DNA of 64,000 nucleotides from NCBI RefSeq assembly GCF_900110865.1, contig NZ_FOFD01000007.1, forward strand, positions 186,001 to 250,000, in the 5' to 3' direction. This document shows, one piece after another, positions 52,065-63,660 of this stretch; positions within the stretch are counted from its first letter, which is position 1, and each line of letters begins with the position of its first letter. The DNA is from Natrinema salaciae (GTDB taxonomy: Archaea > Halobacteriota > Halobacteria > Halobacteriales > Natrialbaceae). The notes under the pieces are model-generated. The model did not search any database and had not been told where the DNA came from. It saw nothing but the letters and a program-made list of their open reading frames with translations. A program made the translations under genes and the position numbers.

Positions 52065-52724
52065 TCAACGATGTTCGAGAATCGCGTCCAGCAGTTTCGT
52101 CTGGGCTGCCGCGAGGTGTTCGGTGAACGTCGACCCGGTGATCTCGAGTTCCGCGGCGACCTCGCCGGCGTTGGCCCGTTTCGGGTGTTCGAAGTAGCCC
52201 ATTCGATGGGCCGTCTCGAGGACCTCCGTCTGGCGATCGGTCAGCGTGCTCCGATCGACGAAGACGAGGTTTCGTTCCTCGTGGTCCTGCTGGGACTGGA
52301 GCAGCCGCTGGACGTCGAGCGTCGCATACCGGTCGCGCAACTCGCCGATGATGGCCTGTAACCCCTCCATATCCGGCGCGTGGAAGGTCAGGTACAGCGA
52401 CGCACCCTGCGTGCGGATGTCGACGACCGGACAGTCGTGCTTCTCGATACACTCGCAGGGGCAGCCACGGCCGAGTTCGCGCTCGAACCGGTAGACCGAA
52501 CTCGAGCCGTACGAGAAGATCGACGACAGCTCCGCGTCGACGTCGAACGCGTCGGGATAGCGCTCGGCCTTGAGCATGAACTCCTCGGTCACGCGCTCGG
52601 GCGCGGACGGGTTGGCGCCCCTCGAGACGGAGTCGACCCGGCCACTCGTCTCGGCCGAGGCCTGCGCGACGACACAGTCGGGCGGGTCGTCGATCTTCAC
52701 CTCCGCGCGGATCCCCGAAGACAT
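52065..52724 (-). CDS. Bat-type HTH regulator with a Cys-rich sensor motif
   Basis: A 219-residue regulator. Residues 80-100 contain a cluster of four cysteines (GRGCPCECIEKHDCPVV, Cys88, 90, 92 and 98) able to bind a metal or an Fe-S cluster or to respond to redox. The C-terminal Bat-type HTH (LTDRQTEVLETAHRMGYFEH, ITGSTFTEHLAAAQTKLL) binds DNA. A TATA-like GTTTAGG at about 52751-52757 lies 26 bp upstream of the ATG at 52724. It is divergent from a second HTH regulator gene, and the two probably share control of the intergenic region. Confidence 0.87.
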   Translation of the reverse strand: MSSGIRAEVKIDDPPDCVVAQASAETSGRVDSVSRGANPSAPERVTEEFMLKAERYPDAFDVDAELSSIFSYGSSSVYRFERELGRGCPCECIEKHDCPVVDIRTQGASLYLTFHAPDMEGLQAIIGELRDRYATLDVQRLLQSQQDHEERNLVFVDRSTLTDRQTEVLETAHRMGYFEHPKRANAGEVAAELEITGSTFTEHLAAAQTKLLDAILEHR

Positions 52725-54407: not shown

Positions 54408-56333
54408 TTAGTCGTCGCTCGGCGCTGCTGCACTGCCTTCGCTGCTGACGCCCGTTCCCGGACCGAGATCGATCCCGAGTTCGTCGAGTTTCTCGTCGGG
54501 GACGACGCCGTCGACCCAGCCGCGGTAGTCGTAGTACTCCACTTTCATCTCGTCGAGTTCACAGTACTCGCCCTCGCTGGCACCCTGGCCGCGGATGCCG
54601 TCCTCGAGGAAGCGTTCCGGCAGCGAGTCGTCGCTCCCGTCGAAGCCGTTGAGGTTGTTGTAGTAGCGCTCGAGGTTGTAGACCCGCTCGCCGGCCTCGA
54701 GGAGTTCCTCCTCGCTGACGTCGCGGCCGGTCATTCCGTTGTACTGCAGGACGTACTCCTCGATGCCCTCCGCGAAGGCGTTGAACTTGCAGATGTCGAA
54801 CGAGTCGCTGATGGCGTGGAGGTCCTGGAACTGGGCGGTGAGTTCGCCCTTCCCCTCGTACTCGTAGGGGTCCACCTTCTCGGGGACTCCCAGGATCTCC
54901 GCTGCGGGGGTGTAGCCCCGCAGGTGGCAGGCCCCGCGGTTCGAGGTGGCGTAGCCGATTCCCATCCCCTTCATACAGCGGGGGTCGTAGGCGGCGATCG
55001 TCTGGCCTTTGACCGCCAGCGAGTTCTCGTGGGCGTCCTTCCGGTCGGCGACCCGACGCGGCCCTTCGGCCAGCAGATCGGCGAACTCGTCCTCGCGGCG
55101 GGCGATCCGCTCGATCATGTCGATCATCGTCTCGGTGTCGCCCCACTCGAGTTCGCCGACGCCCTCGAGTTTGCCCTCCTCGGTCATCTCCATGGCCATC
55201 GCCATCATGTTGCCCGCGTCGATAGTGTCGACGCCCATGTCGTTACAGCGGTCGAGCATGAGCGCGATCTTGTCGCGGTCGGTGTGGCCGGAGTTGGGGC
55301 CGAGAGCGTAGGCCGATTCGTACTCGTAGGATTCGGTGCGGACGTTCATCTCCTCGCCCTTGTGCATCGCCGTCACCTCGACTTCCTTCTTGCAGGCGAC
55401 GGGACAGGAGTGACAGGTGGGTTCGTCGACGAGGATGTTCTCGCGGACGTTCTCGCCGGAGACCCGCTCGGCGTCGATGTCGACGCCCTCGGCGTCGCGC
55501 ATGCTTTCCGTCGACGTGTATCGGCCGTTCTTCGTCGGGAGCCCGTCCATCTCCTCGCCGATGTTCATCAGGACGTTCGTCCCGTACATCGAGAGGCCGC
55601 CCTCGTTGGGCGCGGTGACCTCCGACTCCTGGATGGCCTGCATCGCCTGCTGGTGGCCCTCCTTGAACGTCTCCGGGTCGGCCGGTTGGGGCATCCGCGT
55701 GGTGGATTTGACGACGACGGCCTTGAGGTTCTTCGAACCCATCACACAGCCCGTGCCGCCGCGGCCCGAGGCCCGATCGTCCTCGTTCATGATGGAGGCG
55801 TACTTGACCTCGTTTTCGCCGCCGGGGCCGATCCCCATGATGCTCAGGTTCTTTCCGTAGGAGCCCTCGACTTCCTCCTCGATGGCGTCCCGCGTCTCGT
55901 GGAAGCCGTTCCCCCAGAGGTGGGACGCGTCTCGGAGTTCGACCTCGCCGTCCTCCACCAAGGCGTACACCGGTTCGTCGGCCTCGCCCTCGAAGCACAG
56001 GCCGTCGAAGCCGGCCCACTTGAGTCGAGCGCCGGACCAGCCGCCGTGGTGGCTGTCGGTGACGGTACCGGTCAGCGGCGATTTCGTACAGACGGCGATC
56101 CGGCCGCTCATCGTGACCTGCGTGCCCGACAGCGGGCCGTTCATAAACGCCAGCAGATTGTCTGGTCCGAGCGGATCGACGTCCGGCCCCTGTTCGAAAA
56201 CGTACTTTACCCCGAGCCCCCGCGCACCGATATACTTCTTCGCGTCCTCGTCGTCGATCGACTCGTACGCGACCTCCCCGTCCGAGAGATCGATGCGGGC
56301 GACCCTGTCTTGAAATCCGCCGAGTTCAGTCAT
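54408..56333 (-). CDS. aor: Aldehyde ferredoxin oxidoreductase (tungsten enzyme)
   Basis: A 641-residue enzyme of the AOR family: oxidises aldehydes to carboxylates with a tungstopterin and a 4Fe-4S cluster, electrons going to ferredoxin. The N-terminal domain contains the pterin-binding region (ARGLGVKYVFEQGPDVDPLG, FMNGPLSGTQVTMSGR). The cluster motif CHSCPVAC lies near residue 308, with a distal Cys in SDSFDICKFN near 514. The tail after residue 615 is acidic and disordered. It stands alone; ferredoxin and tungstate transporter genes are not adjacent, though SAMP/MoaD-like genes elsewhere in the window could serve cofactor synthesis. Confidence 0.93.
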   Translation of the reverse strand: MTELGGFQDRVARIDLSDGEVAYESIDDEDAKKYIGARGLGVKYVFEQGPDVDPLGPDNLLAFMNGPLSGTQVTMSGRIAVCTKSPLTGTVTDSHHGGWSGARLKWAGFDGLCFEGEADEPVYALVEDGEVELRDASHLWGNGFHETRDAIEEEVEGSYGKNLSIMGIGPGGENEVKYASIMNEDDRASGRGGTGCVMGSKNLKAVVVKSTTRMPQPADPETFKEGHQQAMQAIQESEVTAPNEGGLSMYGTNVLMNIGEEMDGLPTKNGRYTSTESMRDAEGVDIDAERVSGENVRENILVDEPTCHSCPVACKKEVEVTAMHKGEEMNVRTESYEYESAYALGPNSGHTDRDKIALMLDRCNDMGVDTIDAGNMMAMAMEMTEEGKLEGVGELEWGDTETMIDMIERIARREDEFADLLAEGPRRVADRKDAHENSLAVKGQTIAAYDPRCMKGMGIGYATSNRGACHLRGYTPAAEILGVPEKVDPYEYEGKGELTAQFQDLHAISDSFDICKFNAFAEGIEEYVLQYNGMTGRDVSEEELLEAGERVYNLERYYNNLNGFDGSDDSLPERFLEDGIRGQGASEGEYCELDEMKVEYYDYRGWVDGVVPDEKLDELGIDLGPGTGVSSEGSAAAPSDD

Positions 56334-56558
56334 GGTAAACGCTCCGTGTTATCTACGACCTCCATCGTGTTAGGCGTTCCCAGACAGATGTAACCAAAGT
56401 CGGTTACAGCAGATCGAGCAGAACCGCCCGATCGATCGGTCGACAGCGACGATGGTAATTCGGTTCGGAGGGTCGCGCAGTCCGGCACGAGCCGCGGAAA
56501 CGTAACCACCCGCAATCACACTGATCTGTCGATACGTTCGGAGCCGTCCTCCGCGAGG

Positions 56559-56747
56559 CTACAGGAGGAGCGCGACCACCGCGAGGATGATGAAGATCAG
56601 GACGAAGATCCGCGCGATCTCCATCGAGACTCCGGCGACGCCGCGGGCACCGACGGCGGCGGCGACGATCGCGAGGATGAAGAAAATTACCGCCCAGTAC
56701 AGGAATCCGCCGCCGCCCATCTGAAGCGGCGTTGCGAGCGTGAGCAT
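56559..56747 (-). CDS. DUF1328-like small membrane protein
   Basis: A 62-residue protein of two membrane helices with the DUF1328-type sequence (FLYWAVIFFILAIVAAAVGA, GVAGVSMEIARIFVLIFIIL). Small stress-related membrane proteins of bacteria share this. The ATG at 56747 is preferred to the upstream one at 56774, because an ATTTAT box at about 56771-56778 lies 26 bp before it. Confidence 0.8.
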   Translation of the reverse strand: MLTLATPLQMGGGGFLYWAVIFFILAIVAAAVGARGVAGVSMEIARIFVLIFIILAVVALLL

Positions 56748-56857: not shown

Positions 56858-58756
56858 CTAGGCGTCCCCGAAGAACGCTCGACACAGTTTCGCCTCGGCC
56901 GTCCGCAGGTGCTCGTGGAAGGTCGGCCGCGAGACGCCCATCGACTGGGCGAGTTCCTCACCGGTCGTCGGCCGCGGCCACTCGAAGTAACCACCGAGGT
57001 AGGCCCGCTGTAACGCACCGAACTGGCGGTCCGTCAGCGCCTCCTCGAGTCGGGCGGCGAACTCCTGGCGGGTCTCGGCGTCGCGGTCCCGCTGCTGGAA
57101 CGAGACGACGTCGGTCCCGGCGTAGCGGTCTTCGACGGCCTCGACGATCGAGCGGACGTTTGCCGACCGGGGTATCTCGAGGGTCACGCGCGCTCGACCG
57201 TCCTCGGTCTCGACGGCTTCCGTGCGGACACCGCGTTCGGAGAGCCAGGCGACGAGGTCGTCGGACCCGGTGAGTTCGATCAGGCACTCCTCGTCGCGCT
57301 CGACGACGACGCGACAGTCGACGTCGGACAGTTCCTCGGCGGCGGCGAGGAGTTCGTCGGCGTCCGCCCCGGTGACGGTAAACAGCGACGCCGTCTCGTC
57401 GTCGGTTCGGTGGACCGATCGACGATACTCGAGTCGACAGTCGGCCGCCGCGGAGAGGGCGACGGGTGCGAAGACCTGGTCGGTCAGCTCGAGTTCGACG
57501 GCGACGACGGCGTCGGTCGCAAGCATACGACTGGTTTCGCGGGCGTTGACCCCGCTCGCGACCGCGCGTGCGAGCGCGGAGAGGATAACCGTCTCGCGGT
57601 CGTCGACGGTGCGGTCCGTCCGGACCGTCAGCACGCCGTACTCGATGTCGTTGTACGACAGCGGAAACGCGGCGCGGGTCGTCCCGTCGACGGTCTCGAC
57701 GGCGGGGTCGTTCGTCGCGAGCGTTTCGGCGGCGGGATGGTCGTCGTCGATCGCGATGGTATCCCGCTCCGGGTCGACGCCCGCGCTCGAGCGGACGTCG
57801 ATCGTCCCCGTCGCGGGATTCCGTTCGCCGATCCAGGCGCCCTCGTAGGCGTCCTCGTCGGCGACCCGCGAGCAAACTTCGGCCTCGAGCTCCGTGCGGT
57901 CGGTCGAGCCAGCGACGACGGCCGTGACGTCCTGGATCAGTCCCTCGACGCGGTCGAGGATGTACTCGAGTTCCGCGGTCCGCCGCTCGAGTGCGAGTTC
58001 GGCCTCCTTGCGCGCGGTGATGTCGTTCTGGAAGCCGACGTAGTTGGTCACGCGGCCGTTCTCGTCCCGAACCGGGGCGATCGTCACCTCGTTCCAGAAC
58101 TCGGTGCCGTCCTTGCGGTAGTTTTTCAGTTCGACGGTGACCGGTCGGTCGGCGTCGATCGCCGCCGCCATCTCGGCGATCGCGTCCGGGTCCGACTCCT
58201 CGCCCTGCAGGAACCGACAGTTCCGACCGACGACGTCGTCGAATTCGTACCCGGTGATCGCCTCGTACGCCTCGTTGACGTAGACGAGCGGATTGTCCTC
58301 GCGGTCGGGGTCGGAGATCGTGACCCCGACGGGTGCTTCCTCGAGCGCGCGGTCTTTGACCAGCCGGTCGCTCTCATCTGCCGGGGTGCCGTCGGTGTCC
58401 GCGGCCGCGACGTCGGTTCCGCGACCGGCGTCGTCGCCGTCGAACGTAATCGTCGCACCGTCGGCCCCGCGGTGAACGCGGGCACTGCCCGGCTCACCCG
58501 CGACGTCGATCCGCCGGGCGGTGCCGACCGTCGTCTCGTCGATCGCGGCTGCGAGCCGATCCCAGTACGCGTCGAGTGCCGACGCCGGATCGCGCTCACC
58601 GTCGCCGAGTTCGAACGTCTCCCGGGCGGCCGCGTTCGCGTACGTTATCGTTCCGTCCGCGACGGCCACGACCGGATCGACCACGTGCTCGAGCGCACGG
58701 GCCGCCCCTGTCGCGTCGTCGACGGTGCCACCGCGGTCCGCGTCGACATCGGTCAT
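56858..58756 (-). CDS. bat: LOV/PAS-GAF-HTH regulator (Bat-type)
   Basis: A 632-residue transcriptional regulator with the architecture of bacterio-opsin activator Bat. A degenerate PAS lies at about 20-80. Residues 135-260 form a LOV-type PAS domain with the complete flavin signature: Cys180 in GRNCRFLQG, NYRKDGTEFWNEVTIAPV and TNYVGFQNDIT. A GAF domain follows (about 285-425), then a Bat sensor region and a C-terminal HTH (LTDRQFGALQRAYLGGYFEW, VSRPTFHEHLRTAEAKL). LOV domains form a light-induced Cys-flavin adduct, so blue-light sensing is likely. The TATA-like box near 58780-58788 supports the ATG at 58756. No opsin gene is in the window. Confidence 0.88.
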   Translation of the reverse strand: MTDVDADRGGTVDDATGAARALEHVVDPVVAVADGTITYANAAARETFELGDGERDPASALDAYWDRLAAAIDETTVGTARRIDVAGEPGSARVHRGADGATITFDGDDAGRGTDVAAADTDGTPADESDRLVKDRALEEAPVGVTISDPDREDNPLVYVNEAYEAITGYEFDDVVGRNCRFLQGEESDPDAIAEMAAAIDADRPVTVELKNYRKDGTEFWNEVTIAPVRDENGRVTNYVGFQNDITARKEAELALERRTAELEYILDRVEGLIQDVTAVVAGSTDRTELEAEVCSRVADEDAYEGAWIGERNPATGTIDVRSSAGVDPERDTIAIDDDHPAAETLATNDPAVETVDGTTRAAFPLSYNDIEYGVLTVRTDRTVDDRETVILSALARAVASGVNARETSRMLATDAVVAVELELTDQVFAPVALSAAADCRLEYRRSVHRTDDETASLFTVTGADADELLAAAEELSDVDCRVVVERDEECLIELTGSDDLVAWLSERGVRTEAVETEDGRARVTLEIPRSANVRSIVEAVEDRYAGTDVVSFQQRDRDAETRQEFAARLEEALTDRQFGALQRAYLGGYFEWPRPTTGEELAQSMGVSRPTFHEHLRTAEAKLCRAFFGDA

Positions 58757-58863: not shown

Positions 58864-59055
58864 ATGCCAGTACACCGATCACCGTTCGAGCGGCTCCGGG
58901 AGAAGTTCGACGAGTCGGAACTGCGCTGTCCGGCGTGTGGCTACGTCGACACCGAGGGCGGCTGGCGCGTCACCACCTCGGGCGGGCGAGTCCGCTACCA
59001 GTTCGTCTGTCCGACCTGCGACGCCGTCGAGACCAGAGAGCTCCGGCTCGACTGA
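58864..59055 (+). CDS. HVO_0649-like zinc-finger protein
   Basis: A 63-residue protein with two CxxC pairs (RCPACGYVD and VCPTCDAV) 29 residues apart and the pattern WRVTTSGGRVRYQFVC between them, as in the HVO_0649 family of haloarchaeal zinc-finger microproteins. A TATA-like ATATACG element at about 58834-58841 lies 26 bp before the ATG, giving a leaderless mRNA. It is divergent from the LOV regulator. Confidence 0.8.
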   Translation: MPVHRSPFERLREKFDESELRCPACGYVDTEGGWRVTTSGGRVRYQFVCPTCDAVETRELRLD

Positions 59056-59498: not shown

Positions 59499-60611
59499 AT
59501 GGTTTCACGACCGCGAACGATCGGTGTCGCGTTCGTCGCGCTGTTGGTCGTGCTGTCGGGGGGTCCCGCCCTCGTCGGCGGAGCGACAACGGACGCGGAC
59601 GCGAACGGCGACGCCGGAGACATGGGCGACACGAGCGCAACGCTGAAGAACGTACAGGTCGGTACACTCGAGCTCGAGAACCTCACGGTTCAGAACGCGA
59701 CGATCGAGGAACTCACCGTCCAGCAACTGGACGTACAGGACAACCAAGAACTCCAAGAACAACTGAACGAGAGCGACGGGAATCAGTCCGTGGGCAATCA
59801 GTCCTCGGACGAGGTGATGATCACGAACGTCGTCTTCGAATCGCTCGCGCTCCAGAACGTCTCGATCGACGACCTCGGCGAGGAAACGAACGAGACGAAC
59901 GCGACCGACGGTCTGGACGCGACCGAGGCAAACGAGACGAACGAGACGAACGCGACCGGTATGGAGAGCGCCGACGGGAACGAGTCGGGTCTGCAAGGAG
60001 TGATCGACGAGGACGCGGACGAGGTGCAGATCCAGAACCTGACTATCGAGTCGATGAACGTCGATCGAATGGCGATCAACGACCTGACCGTCGAGGAGGA
60101 TCGAGGCGGAATCCTCTCGGGCATCTCCGACTTCGTCGGCGGGCTGTTCGGCGGCGGAGACGGCGGGAACCAATCGAACGCCACGAACGCCAGCACCCAG
60201 CAGATCGACGATCTGACCATCGAGGAGTTCAACCTCAGCGAACTCACCTTCGAGTCGATGACCGTCGGGTCCCTCGAGGCCGGAGCCGAGGGTACGGCTG
60301 GCAACGAGACGACCGACAACGAAACGACTGCCAACGAGACGGCCGATAACGAGACGACCGCCGGCAACGTCAGCGAGATGGGCACGGGCGAGACGGTCTC
60401 GTCGGCCTCCGCGGGATCGATGGTCGTCGAGAACAGTTCCGCACAGAGCCTCACTCTCGGCGAAACGGAGGGACTGGAAGAATCGCTGCAACAGCCGTCG
60501 GCGAACGAAACGACGAACGAGACGGGCGGAATGAACGAGACGAACGAAACGAACGAGACGAACCAGACGGGTGTCGCAAACGAAACGAACGAGACGAACG
60601 AAACGGGATAG
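59499..60611 (+). CDS. Secreted protein rich in NET glycosylation sequons
   Basis: A 370-residue exported protein. It has a signal peptide (RPRTIGVAFVALLVVLSGGP, cleavage near residue 28) and then repeats of short strands of the type VQVGTLELENLTVQNATIEE, alternating with acidic stretches. More than twenty N-x-S/T sequons are present, mostly NET or NAT; the C terminus is almost only NETNET units and ends NETNETG without an anchor. The repeated LENLTVQNATIEELTV, FESLALQNVSIDDL and IQNLTIESMNVDRM elements suggest a pentapeptide- or beta-helix-like stack. Secretion and heavy N-glycosylation are inferred. A gene with the same NET motif lies at 63188-63484. Confidence 0.8.
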   Translation: MVSRPRTIGVAFVALLVVLSGGPALVGGATTDADANGDAGDMGDTSATLKNVQVGTLELENLTVQNATIEELTVQQLDVQDNQELQEQLNESDGNQSVGNQSSDEVMITNVVFESLALQNVSIDDLGEETNETNATDGLDATEANETNETNATGMESADGNESGLQGVIDEDADEVQIQNLTIESMNVDRMAINDLTVEEDRGGILSGISDFVGGLFGGGDGGNQSNATNASTQQIDDLTIEEFNLSELTFESMTVGSLEAGAEGTAGNETTDNETTANETADNETTAGNVSEMGTGETVSSASAGSMVVENSSAQSLTLGETEGLEESLQQPSANETTNETGGMNETNETNETNQTGVANETNETNETG

Positions 60612-63187: not shown

Positions 63188-63484
63188 TTATTCGGATTCG
63201 TTCGTCTCGTTGGTCTCGTTCATCCCGGTCTCGTTGGTCTCGTTCATCCCAGTCTCGTTGGTCTCGTTCATCCCAGTCTCGTTGGTCTCGTTCATCCCGG
63301 TCTCGTTGGTCTCGTTCATCCCGGTCTCGTTGCCCGTTCCTTCCTCCGTTTCGGTTTCGGTTTCGTTGTCTTCGGTTTCGTTCCCGCCGCCCGGTCCGCC
63401 GCAACCGGCGACGAGGGCGGTCGAGGCTGCTGCACCAGTTAGCTTCAGTACTCGTCGGCGAGTCGACGGCTGTTGATCAGTCAT
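63188..63484 (-). CDS. Tat lipoprotein with NETNET sequon repeats
   Basis: A 98-residue exported lipoprotein. The signal has a twin-arginine motif (STRRRVLKLTG) and a lipobox ending in Cys (LVAGCGG). The mature part begins GGPGGGNETEDNET and consists almost wholly of five copies of GMNETNET, ending in NETNESE. It carries about 14 N-glycosylation sequons and would form a lipid-anchored, highly glycosylated, acidic stalk. A TATA-like CTTATGG at about 63508-63514 supports the ATG at 63484. It resembles the tail of the protein at 59499-60611. Confidence 0.8.
   Translation of the reverse strand: MTDQQPSTRRRVLKLTGAAASTALVAGCGGPGGGNETEDNETETETEEGTGNETGMNETNETGMNETNETGMNETNETGMNETNETGMNETNETNESE
63204..63323. 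repeat. Five tandem 24-bp repeats
   Basis: Five units of 24 bp encode the octapeptide GMNETNET on the minus strand. The spacing of CATCCC at 63221, 63245, 63269, 63293 and 63317 is exact. Units differ by single bases (CCCGG or CCCAG), so the array is recent and could vary in copy number. Confidence 0.8.
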
Positions 63485-63660
63485 ACGGAAGTAATCAGTA
63501 GCGACATCCATAAGCCGTCAGCCGTCACTTGCGTGGTCCCTATCGCCTCATATCGAGCGGTCGGCCGCCGACGACCGGTCCGGTCTATCGGTTTCGGCGA
63601 CCGTTCGATCGCAGTAGACGTAGGCAGCACACACAAGAACGTCACCGGTGTACGACTCCC

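Follow-up and report, generated by a model that had tools for sequence, protein, structure and literature searches.

We consider it rather probable that the gene at positions 56858 to 58756 of the window, by which we mean the whole stretch of 64,000 nucleotides from Natrinema salaciae analyzed here, encodes a one-component, flavin-binding, LOV-type Bat regulator, most likely serving promoters other than those of Bat proteins linked to bop. Bat, Brz and Brb control bop (Tarasov et al. 2008, 2011; PMC2253796, PMC3184054), light induction of bacteriorhodopsin genes has been reported for Halobacterium, and a direct response of Bat to light has been called not definitively established (PMC4682037). 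Bat of H. salinarum is described as lacking the reactive cysteine (PMC4844311), and a cysteine-less Bat LOV domain of Halorubrum has been studied by Yee et al. (2015; PMC4682037). LOV proteins with a helix-turn-helix (HTH) domain, Bat-like ones included, are already published for haloarchaea: 167 archaeal LOV proteins were compiled by Losi et al. (2014), 30% of the halobacterial ones combined with HTH and one arrangement Bat-like (PMC4844311). The gene in the window is one more. In the open-licence literature, we found no report that Bats linked to bop usually carry a cysteine-containing LOV domain (Cys-LOV Bats).

Domains and flavin site of the regulator

The open reading frame lies on the minus strand and comprises the following parts:

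56858..58756, minus strand: LOV-type Bat gene, ATG start, 632 amino acids
residues ~29-107: PAS-like N domain, a PAS-like alpha/beta arrangement in the AlphaFold2 model
residues ~135-250: LOV domain with Cys180 (Pfam PAS_9, motif and model)
residues 247-283: long helix of 37 residues (AlphaFold2 model)
residues ~287-412: GAF-like region (AlphaFold2 model)
residues 415-567: BAT domain (Pfam)
residues 574-625: HTH_10 domain (Pfam)
58217..58222, minus strand: codons of Asn179 and Cys180 (Cys180 at 58217-58219), calculated from the start codon at 58756 and in agreement with the motif match

The first-pass annotation had placed a Bat-type regulator with a LOV signature here, and this is borne out. 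Pfam detects BAT (3e-43), PAS_9 (residues 142-248, 2e-25) and HTH_10 (2e-19) in the protein, and with BAT and HTH_10 above the Pfam cut-off it belongs to the Bat family. The annotation had also listed a GAF domain and an HTH in a single protein. The HTH is confirmed as HTH_10, whereas Pfam returned no GAF domain for the protein itself; GAF_2 matches 17 of the 22 sequences in alignment A2, and the region before BAT is GAF-like in the structural model. This AlphaFold2 model was built from 22 sequences (mean pLDDT 76.6, pTM 0.36) and is read for domain folds only. It places a PAS-like fold on the N-terminal side of the LOV domain, which is thus the second PAS domain, as had been stated. The LOV part has the PAS/LOV fold and superimposes in Foldseek on the crystal structures of MrLOV with a TM score of 0.91 and of YtvA with 0.88. 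The best match of the protein in the PDB is YtvA of Bacillus subtilis (E 4e-36), its closest solved LOV domain, and the nearest solved structures are LOV photoreceptors, a match far beyond chance. Against the YtvA family as a whole, the protein scores 162 bits versus a cut-off of 250, and its output domain differs from that of YtvA, which is a STAS domain.

Cys180 indeed lies in GRNCRFLQG, a motif beginning at residue 177, and all flavin-site residues are in place (G177, N179, C180, R181, F182, L183, Q184, N212, N222 and Q243), so that the adduct cysteine within GxNCRFLQ is accompanied by nine other flavin residues, as in canonical LOV domains. These ten residues are invariant across 28 other orthologues (29 other loci, less the unparsed L039), save for one F182I exchange. 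The corresponding YtvA residues G59, N61, R63, F64, L65, Q66, N94, N104 and Q123 are given as strictly conserved by Yee et al. (PMC4682037). The full flavin-binding pattern that had been claimed therefore stands for all ten key residues but has to be qualified at Tyr164, where most LOV domains have phenylalanine. Because of this tyrosine at its fourth position, the LOV pattern of Losi et al. (2014), [NS]-x(2)-[FPGHSA]-x(4)-[GEQR]-x(9,11)-C, does not match the protein; that pattern served as a search aid and not as a definition of LOV (PMC4844311). The protein shares with the haloarchaeal LOV-HTH proteins collected there the general plan (RR/GAF/PAS)+LOV+nPAS+kGAF+HTH, although the search pattern used for them misses it.

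Among the 21 loci of the branch to which the gene belongs (see below), position 164 is Tyr in 17 and Phe in 4. Tyr164 precedes the cysteine by 16 residues, the same spacing as for Tyr30 of ALovD-1, a haloarchaeal Cys-LOV domain for which a photocycle has been observed (Valle et al. 2025; PMC12202551). ALovD-1 differs in belonging to a histidine kinase and in having Tyr instead of Phe two residues after the cysteine. Its Y48F variant carries the pair Tyr30 and Phe48, which is matched by Tyr164 and Phe182, and forms the product with a quantum yield reduced to 0.13 (PMC12202551). By analogy, a low but real photoactivation yield is predicted for the LOV domain in the window.

BAT-LOV* of Halorubrum resembles the protein in having a flavin-binding LOV fold within a Bat protein, predicted in our case, but has Pro for Cys, Trp at the position of Tyr164 and an N-terminal receiver domain rather than a PAS-like one (PMC4682037). 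When a cysteine was put into this domain, the adduct was not restored and hydroquinone was formed instead (PMC4682037); the cysteine alone is therefore no proof of a photocycle. Trp at the position of Tyr164 occurs in seven of the seven cysteine-less Bat LOV domains with Pro or Ala in our survey (L250-L253, L255, L256 and L259), which suggests that a flavin-quenching Trp and loss of the cysteine go together in these proteins. A scan of the genome for the LOV motif gave four pattern matches versus three for the control; by our own gene models, the gene in the window is the only one carrying a motif of the searched form in frame; the pattern would overlook a LOV domain whose second residue after the cysteine is Leu.

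LOV-type Bats in haloarchaea

Eighty genomes, one per genus, were surveyed with a profile of 15 relatives (A1), and strong matches were taken. Altogether 73 places were read, 13 of them from earlier searches; 11 without the LOV signature (L262-L271, L273) were dropped and 62 LOV-type Bats from 57 haloarchaeal genomes and as many genera were kept. Genes were predicted with a home-made codon-usage script, which overlooked L259 and L261 (these were read directly), and genes no more than three predicted genes apart count as "next to" each other. A scan with a pattern containing NCR was left out of the cysteine counts. Pfam assignments cover two opsins, brp, AOR, DUF1328 and a small number of further proteins; the labels BR, HR, crtY, crtI, lyeJ, cruF, crtB and Htr are our own provisional ones, based on similarity.

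Residue 180 is Cys in 52 of the 62 proteins, Pro in six, His in three and Ala in one. All 21 loci with DUF1328 or AOR as neighbors have Cys, as do all five next to bacterioruberin crt genes. The 24 loci in an opsin or retinal-gene neighborhood comprise 16 with Cys, three with His and five with Pro, and 12 loci with none of these neighbors comprise ten with Cys, one with Pro and one with Ala. Where an opsin gene itself lies within three genes (n = 22), 15 proteins have the cysteine and seven do not. At the five crt-linked loci (L231, L234, L236, L237 and L245), the Cys-LOV Bats lie beside crtB and bacterioruberin-type genes, the palindrome described below occurs in a flanking gap with at most two mismatches in 5/5 cases, and these loci are candidates for blue-light control of carotenoids.

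The DUF1328-linked proteins come from 21 genera of the Natrialbaceae and form one clade with a support of 100/100. Within Natrinema, the gene is present in 28 of the 29 genomes examined and missing from one (G022); it is therefore dispensable. The tree was calculated with positions 164 and 180 omitted and has 66 rows, that is, the 62 proteins and four more, one per genome of genus g50 (two Cys, two His). It requires three transitions between proteins with and without Cys, one for the Pro/Ala group with Trp164 (seven rows), one for the His group (four rows) and one for L261. Gain and loss are indistinguishable from the tree alone; loss of the cysteine is likelier because the closest outside LOV domains examined carry it, and the cysteine-less Bats of the literature look derived.

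Recognition helix, palindrome and gene neighborhood

Bat of H. salinarum shares with the protein in the window a PAS/LOV-like domain, a GAF or GAF-like region, a C-terminal HTH and a role, predicted for the latter, as transcription regulator, but it is encoded in the bop cluster and lacks the cysteine, whereas the protein in the window has Cys180 and no opsin gene near it. The recognition helix, too, differs from that of opsin-linked Bats. Pro611 and Glu615 are present in 21/21 proteins of the Natrialbaceae branch, while among the other 41 loci Pro611 occurs once and Glu615 four times. This correlation is what a change of DNA target would be expected to look like.

Where a BR gene neighbors a LOV-type Bat, ACTAGTTnGG is found upstream of the BR gene with at most one mismatch in 9/11 loci and with two mismatches in the other two. 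Its symmetric form, ACCnnACTAGTnnGGT, which we take to be the bop UAS of Halobacterium, was scored at up to two mismatches in the gaps flanking Bat, opsin or crtB. It is present at 14 of the 24 opsin or retinal-linked loci (shuffled expectation 0.88) and absent at this threshold from the other ten; it is further present at all five crt-linked loci (0.08) and at 5/12 of the others (0.34). In the flanking gaps of the Natrialbaceae branch, it occurs at 0/21 loci (0.38), and none was found at up to two mismatches within the window. From its position and its presumed identity with the bop UAS, we infer that ACCnnACTAGTnnGGT is the site of Bat and defines its regulon. The whole genome has three one-mismatch sites, none near opsins, compared with one in the control, and the motif is missing from the genome's bacteriorhodopsin promoter. 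Thus, a bop-type palindrome was found neither at the regulator's own promoter nor at that of BR. Likewise, upstream of 15 Natrialbaceae BR genes ACCnnACTAGTnnGGT is not found in the promoter, and the three one-mismatch matches overlap the start of the coding sequence. Instead of the ACTAGT palindrome, these promoters (L274-L287, L057) share two conserved boxes, GGACATACAC and CGTTAGG. A search for a motif common to the regulator, DUF1328, AOR and BR promoters of Natrialbaceae gave nothing convincing. The altered helix and the lack of the palindrome might each go back to a single event on a single branch.

The genetic environment of the regulator is as follows:

54408..56333, minus strand: aldehyde ferredoxin oxidoreductase (AOR; AFOR_C 5e-118, AFOR_N 7e-75), next gene downstream
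56390-56407: GTAAC-N8-GTTAC inverted repeat, also at G000:C2:530392-530409
56559..56747, minus strand: DUF1328 small membrane protein (Pfam PF07043, 4e-11), directly downstream of the regulator
58864..59055, plus strand: small zinc finger protein of the HVO_0649 family (NF041911, 9e-32), divergent, 108 bases from the regulator start

DUF1328 follows the regulator in 21/21 loci of the branch and AOR in 17/21. A classical bop-activator linkage, with opsin, brp or crtY as neighbor, is found at none of the 21. The zinc finger gene accompanies the regulator at all 21 survey loci and at 14/14 extra Natrinema loci, one of them at a distance of 964 bases. We rejected it as a dedicated Brz-like partner: members of its family were found in 225 of 391 genomes of Halobacteria, among them G022 and G079, which have no LOV-type regulator, so that a coupling is unsupported. 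Neither is it Brz itself (NF041795, 13 bits versus a cut-off of 100). A small DmsR-type regulator (DmsR_N and HTH_10; 52065-52724, minus strand) is encoded a few genes from the LOV-type Bat. Asn-Glu-Thr rich repeat proteins (NETNETGM and similar) are encoded at 59499-60611 (plus strand), with no Pfam family found for this first one, and at 63188-63511 (minus strand).

The inverted repeat is located at about -74 of AOR and is exact in 16 of 34 Natrialbaceae AOR upstream sequences. The other two exact copies in the genome lie before a TupA-like gene and beside a CBS-domain-like gene, names that are partly our own reading. The repeat was rejected as the regulator's site; because of the genes near its other copies, a tungsten regulon is likelier, and it is possibly an operator of that regulon.

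The statement that no opsin gene is nearby holds within the window. Three opsin genes are found elsewhere in the genome. Two are neighbors of brp (Pfam BCD) and of a gene presumably related to crtY on contig C4, and the third lies on contig C3 beside a putative transducer gene, the crtY-like gene and the transducer being our own reading of the neighbors. None of the three has a LOV-type Bat beside it. A Bat paralogue (G000:C1:19385-20950, L063) is encoded beside crtB and has a PAS domain without the LOV signature; in other genera, Cys-LOV Bats occur in a comparable gene arrangement. The first-pass annotation had suggested a regulon different from classical bop. For the Natrialbaceae branch, this suggestion gains indirect support from the helix change, the palindrome loss and the fixed neighborhood, whereas the argument from the absence of a nearby opsin is weak as put because the opsins elsewhere in the genome, without a LOV-type Bat of their own, could be controlled in trans.

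Proposed mechanism and alternative readings

The best reading of the sequence would be blue-light sensing through the LOV cysteine combined with one-component control of transcription. From the computed residues, folds, conservation, synteny and motif differences, we infer flavin binding, adduct formation, light control and an altered regulon, which may be connected as follows. The LOV domain would bind FMN or FAD, and blue light would cause an adduct between the flavin and Cys180. Gln243 and the long helix (residues 247-283) would relay the signal to the BAT domain and the GAF-like region, and DNA binding by HTH_10 would be altered as a result of the domain change. In the Natrialbaceae branch, which lies away from the opsin cluster, has the changed recognition helix and has lost the palindrome, a different set of promoters would be addressed.

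The domain might instead serve above all to sense oxygen or, through its flavin, the redox state, with light as a side effect. We hold this to be unlikely, even though Bat of Halobacterium salinarum mediates low-oxygen induction (PMC2253796), a cysteine-less Bat LOV domain changes shape upon chemical reduction (PMC4682037) and the neighboring AOR is a redox enzyme, since pure redox sensing does not need an adduct cysteine and this residue is kept in 52/62 proteins and is invariant in the branch under study. It appears just as doubtful that the regulator is still an activator of opsin or retinal genes, working in trans through a promoter element that has diverged. Such a role would agree with the lack of a LOV-type Bat beside the opsin genes with brp and the crtY-like gene, with the lack of any other in-frame motif of the searched form in the genome and with the conserved boxes that the Natrialbaceae BR promoters have of their own; however, no conservation of these boxes was seen ahead of the regulator, DUF1328 or AOR genes, and four genomes (G025, G029, G030 and G032) contain the regulator and have no opsin match at E 1e-10. 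Somewhat less probable still is a local regulator confined to its neighbors DUF1328 and AOR. The fixed gene order across the genera of the branch argues for it, but the sequences upstream of DUF1328 and AOR are conserved each in its own, different way, and the recurrence of the AOR inverted repeat upstream of the TupA-like gene points to a tungsten regulator instead.

Beyond the single gene, it is possible, and put forward here tentatively, that the usual bop and carotenoid activator is a Cys-LOV blue-light receptor acting via ACCnnACTAGTnnGGT, that the cysteine-less Bats of the Halobacterium and Halorubrum type, which underlie the textbook view, are derived from it, with the His, Pro/Ala and degenerate His losses as the three changes in the tree, and that in the Natrialbaceae branch the photoreceptor retained its light sensor and was rewired to a new regulon via Pro611 and Glu615. 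Because the model Bat of Halobacterium has no LOV cysteine, Cys-LOV Bats beside bacteriorhodopsin genes matter: their occurrence in many genera, together with a matching palindrome, makes the question of light sensing by Bat directly testable outside Halobacterium. The interest is modest for the gene in the window and greater for the class-wide picture. The branch to which this gene belongs seems to have turned, by rewiring, from the family's usual task, the activation of light-driven proton pumps. The Natrialbaceae offer a naturally occurring example of a regulator, predicted to be controlled by light, whose DNA target has changed.
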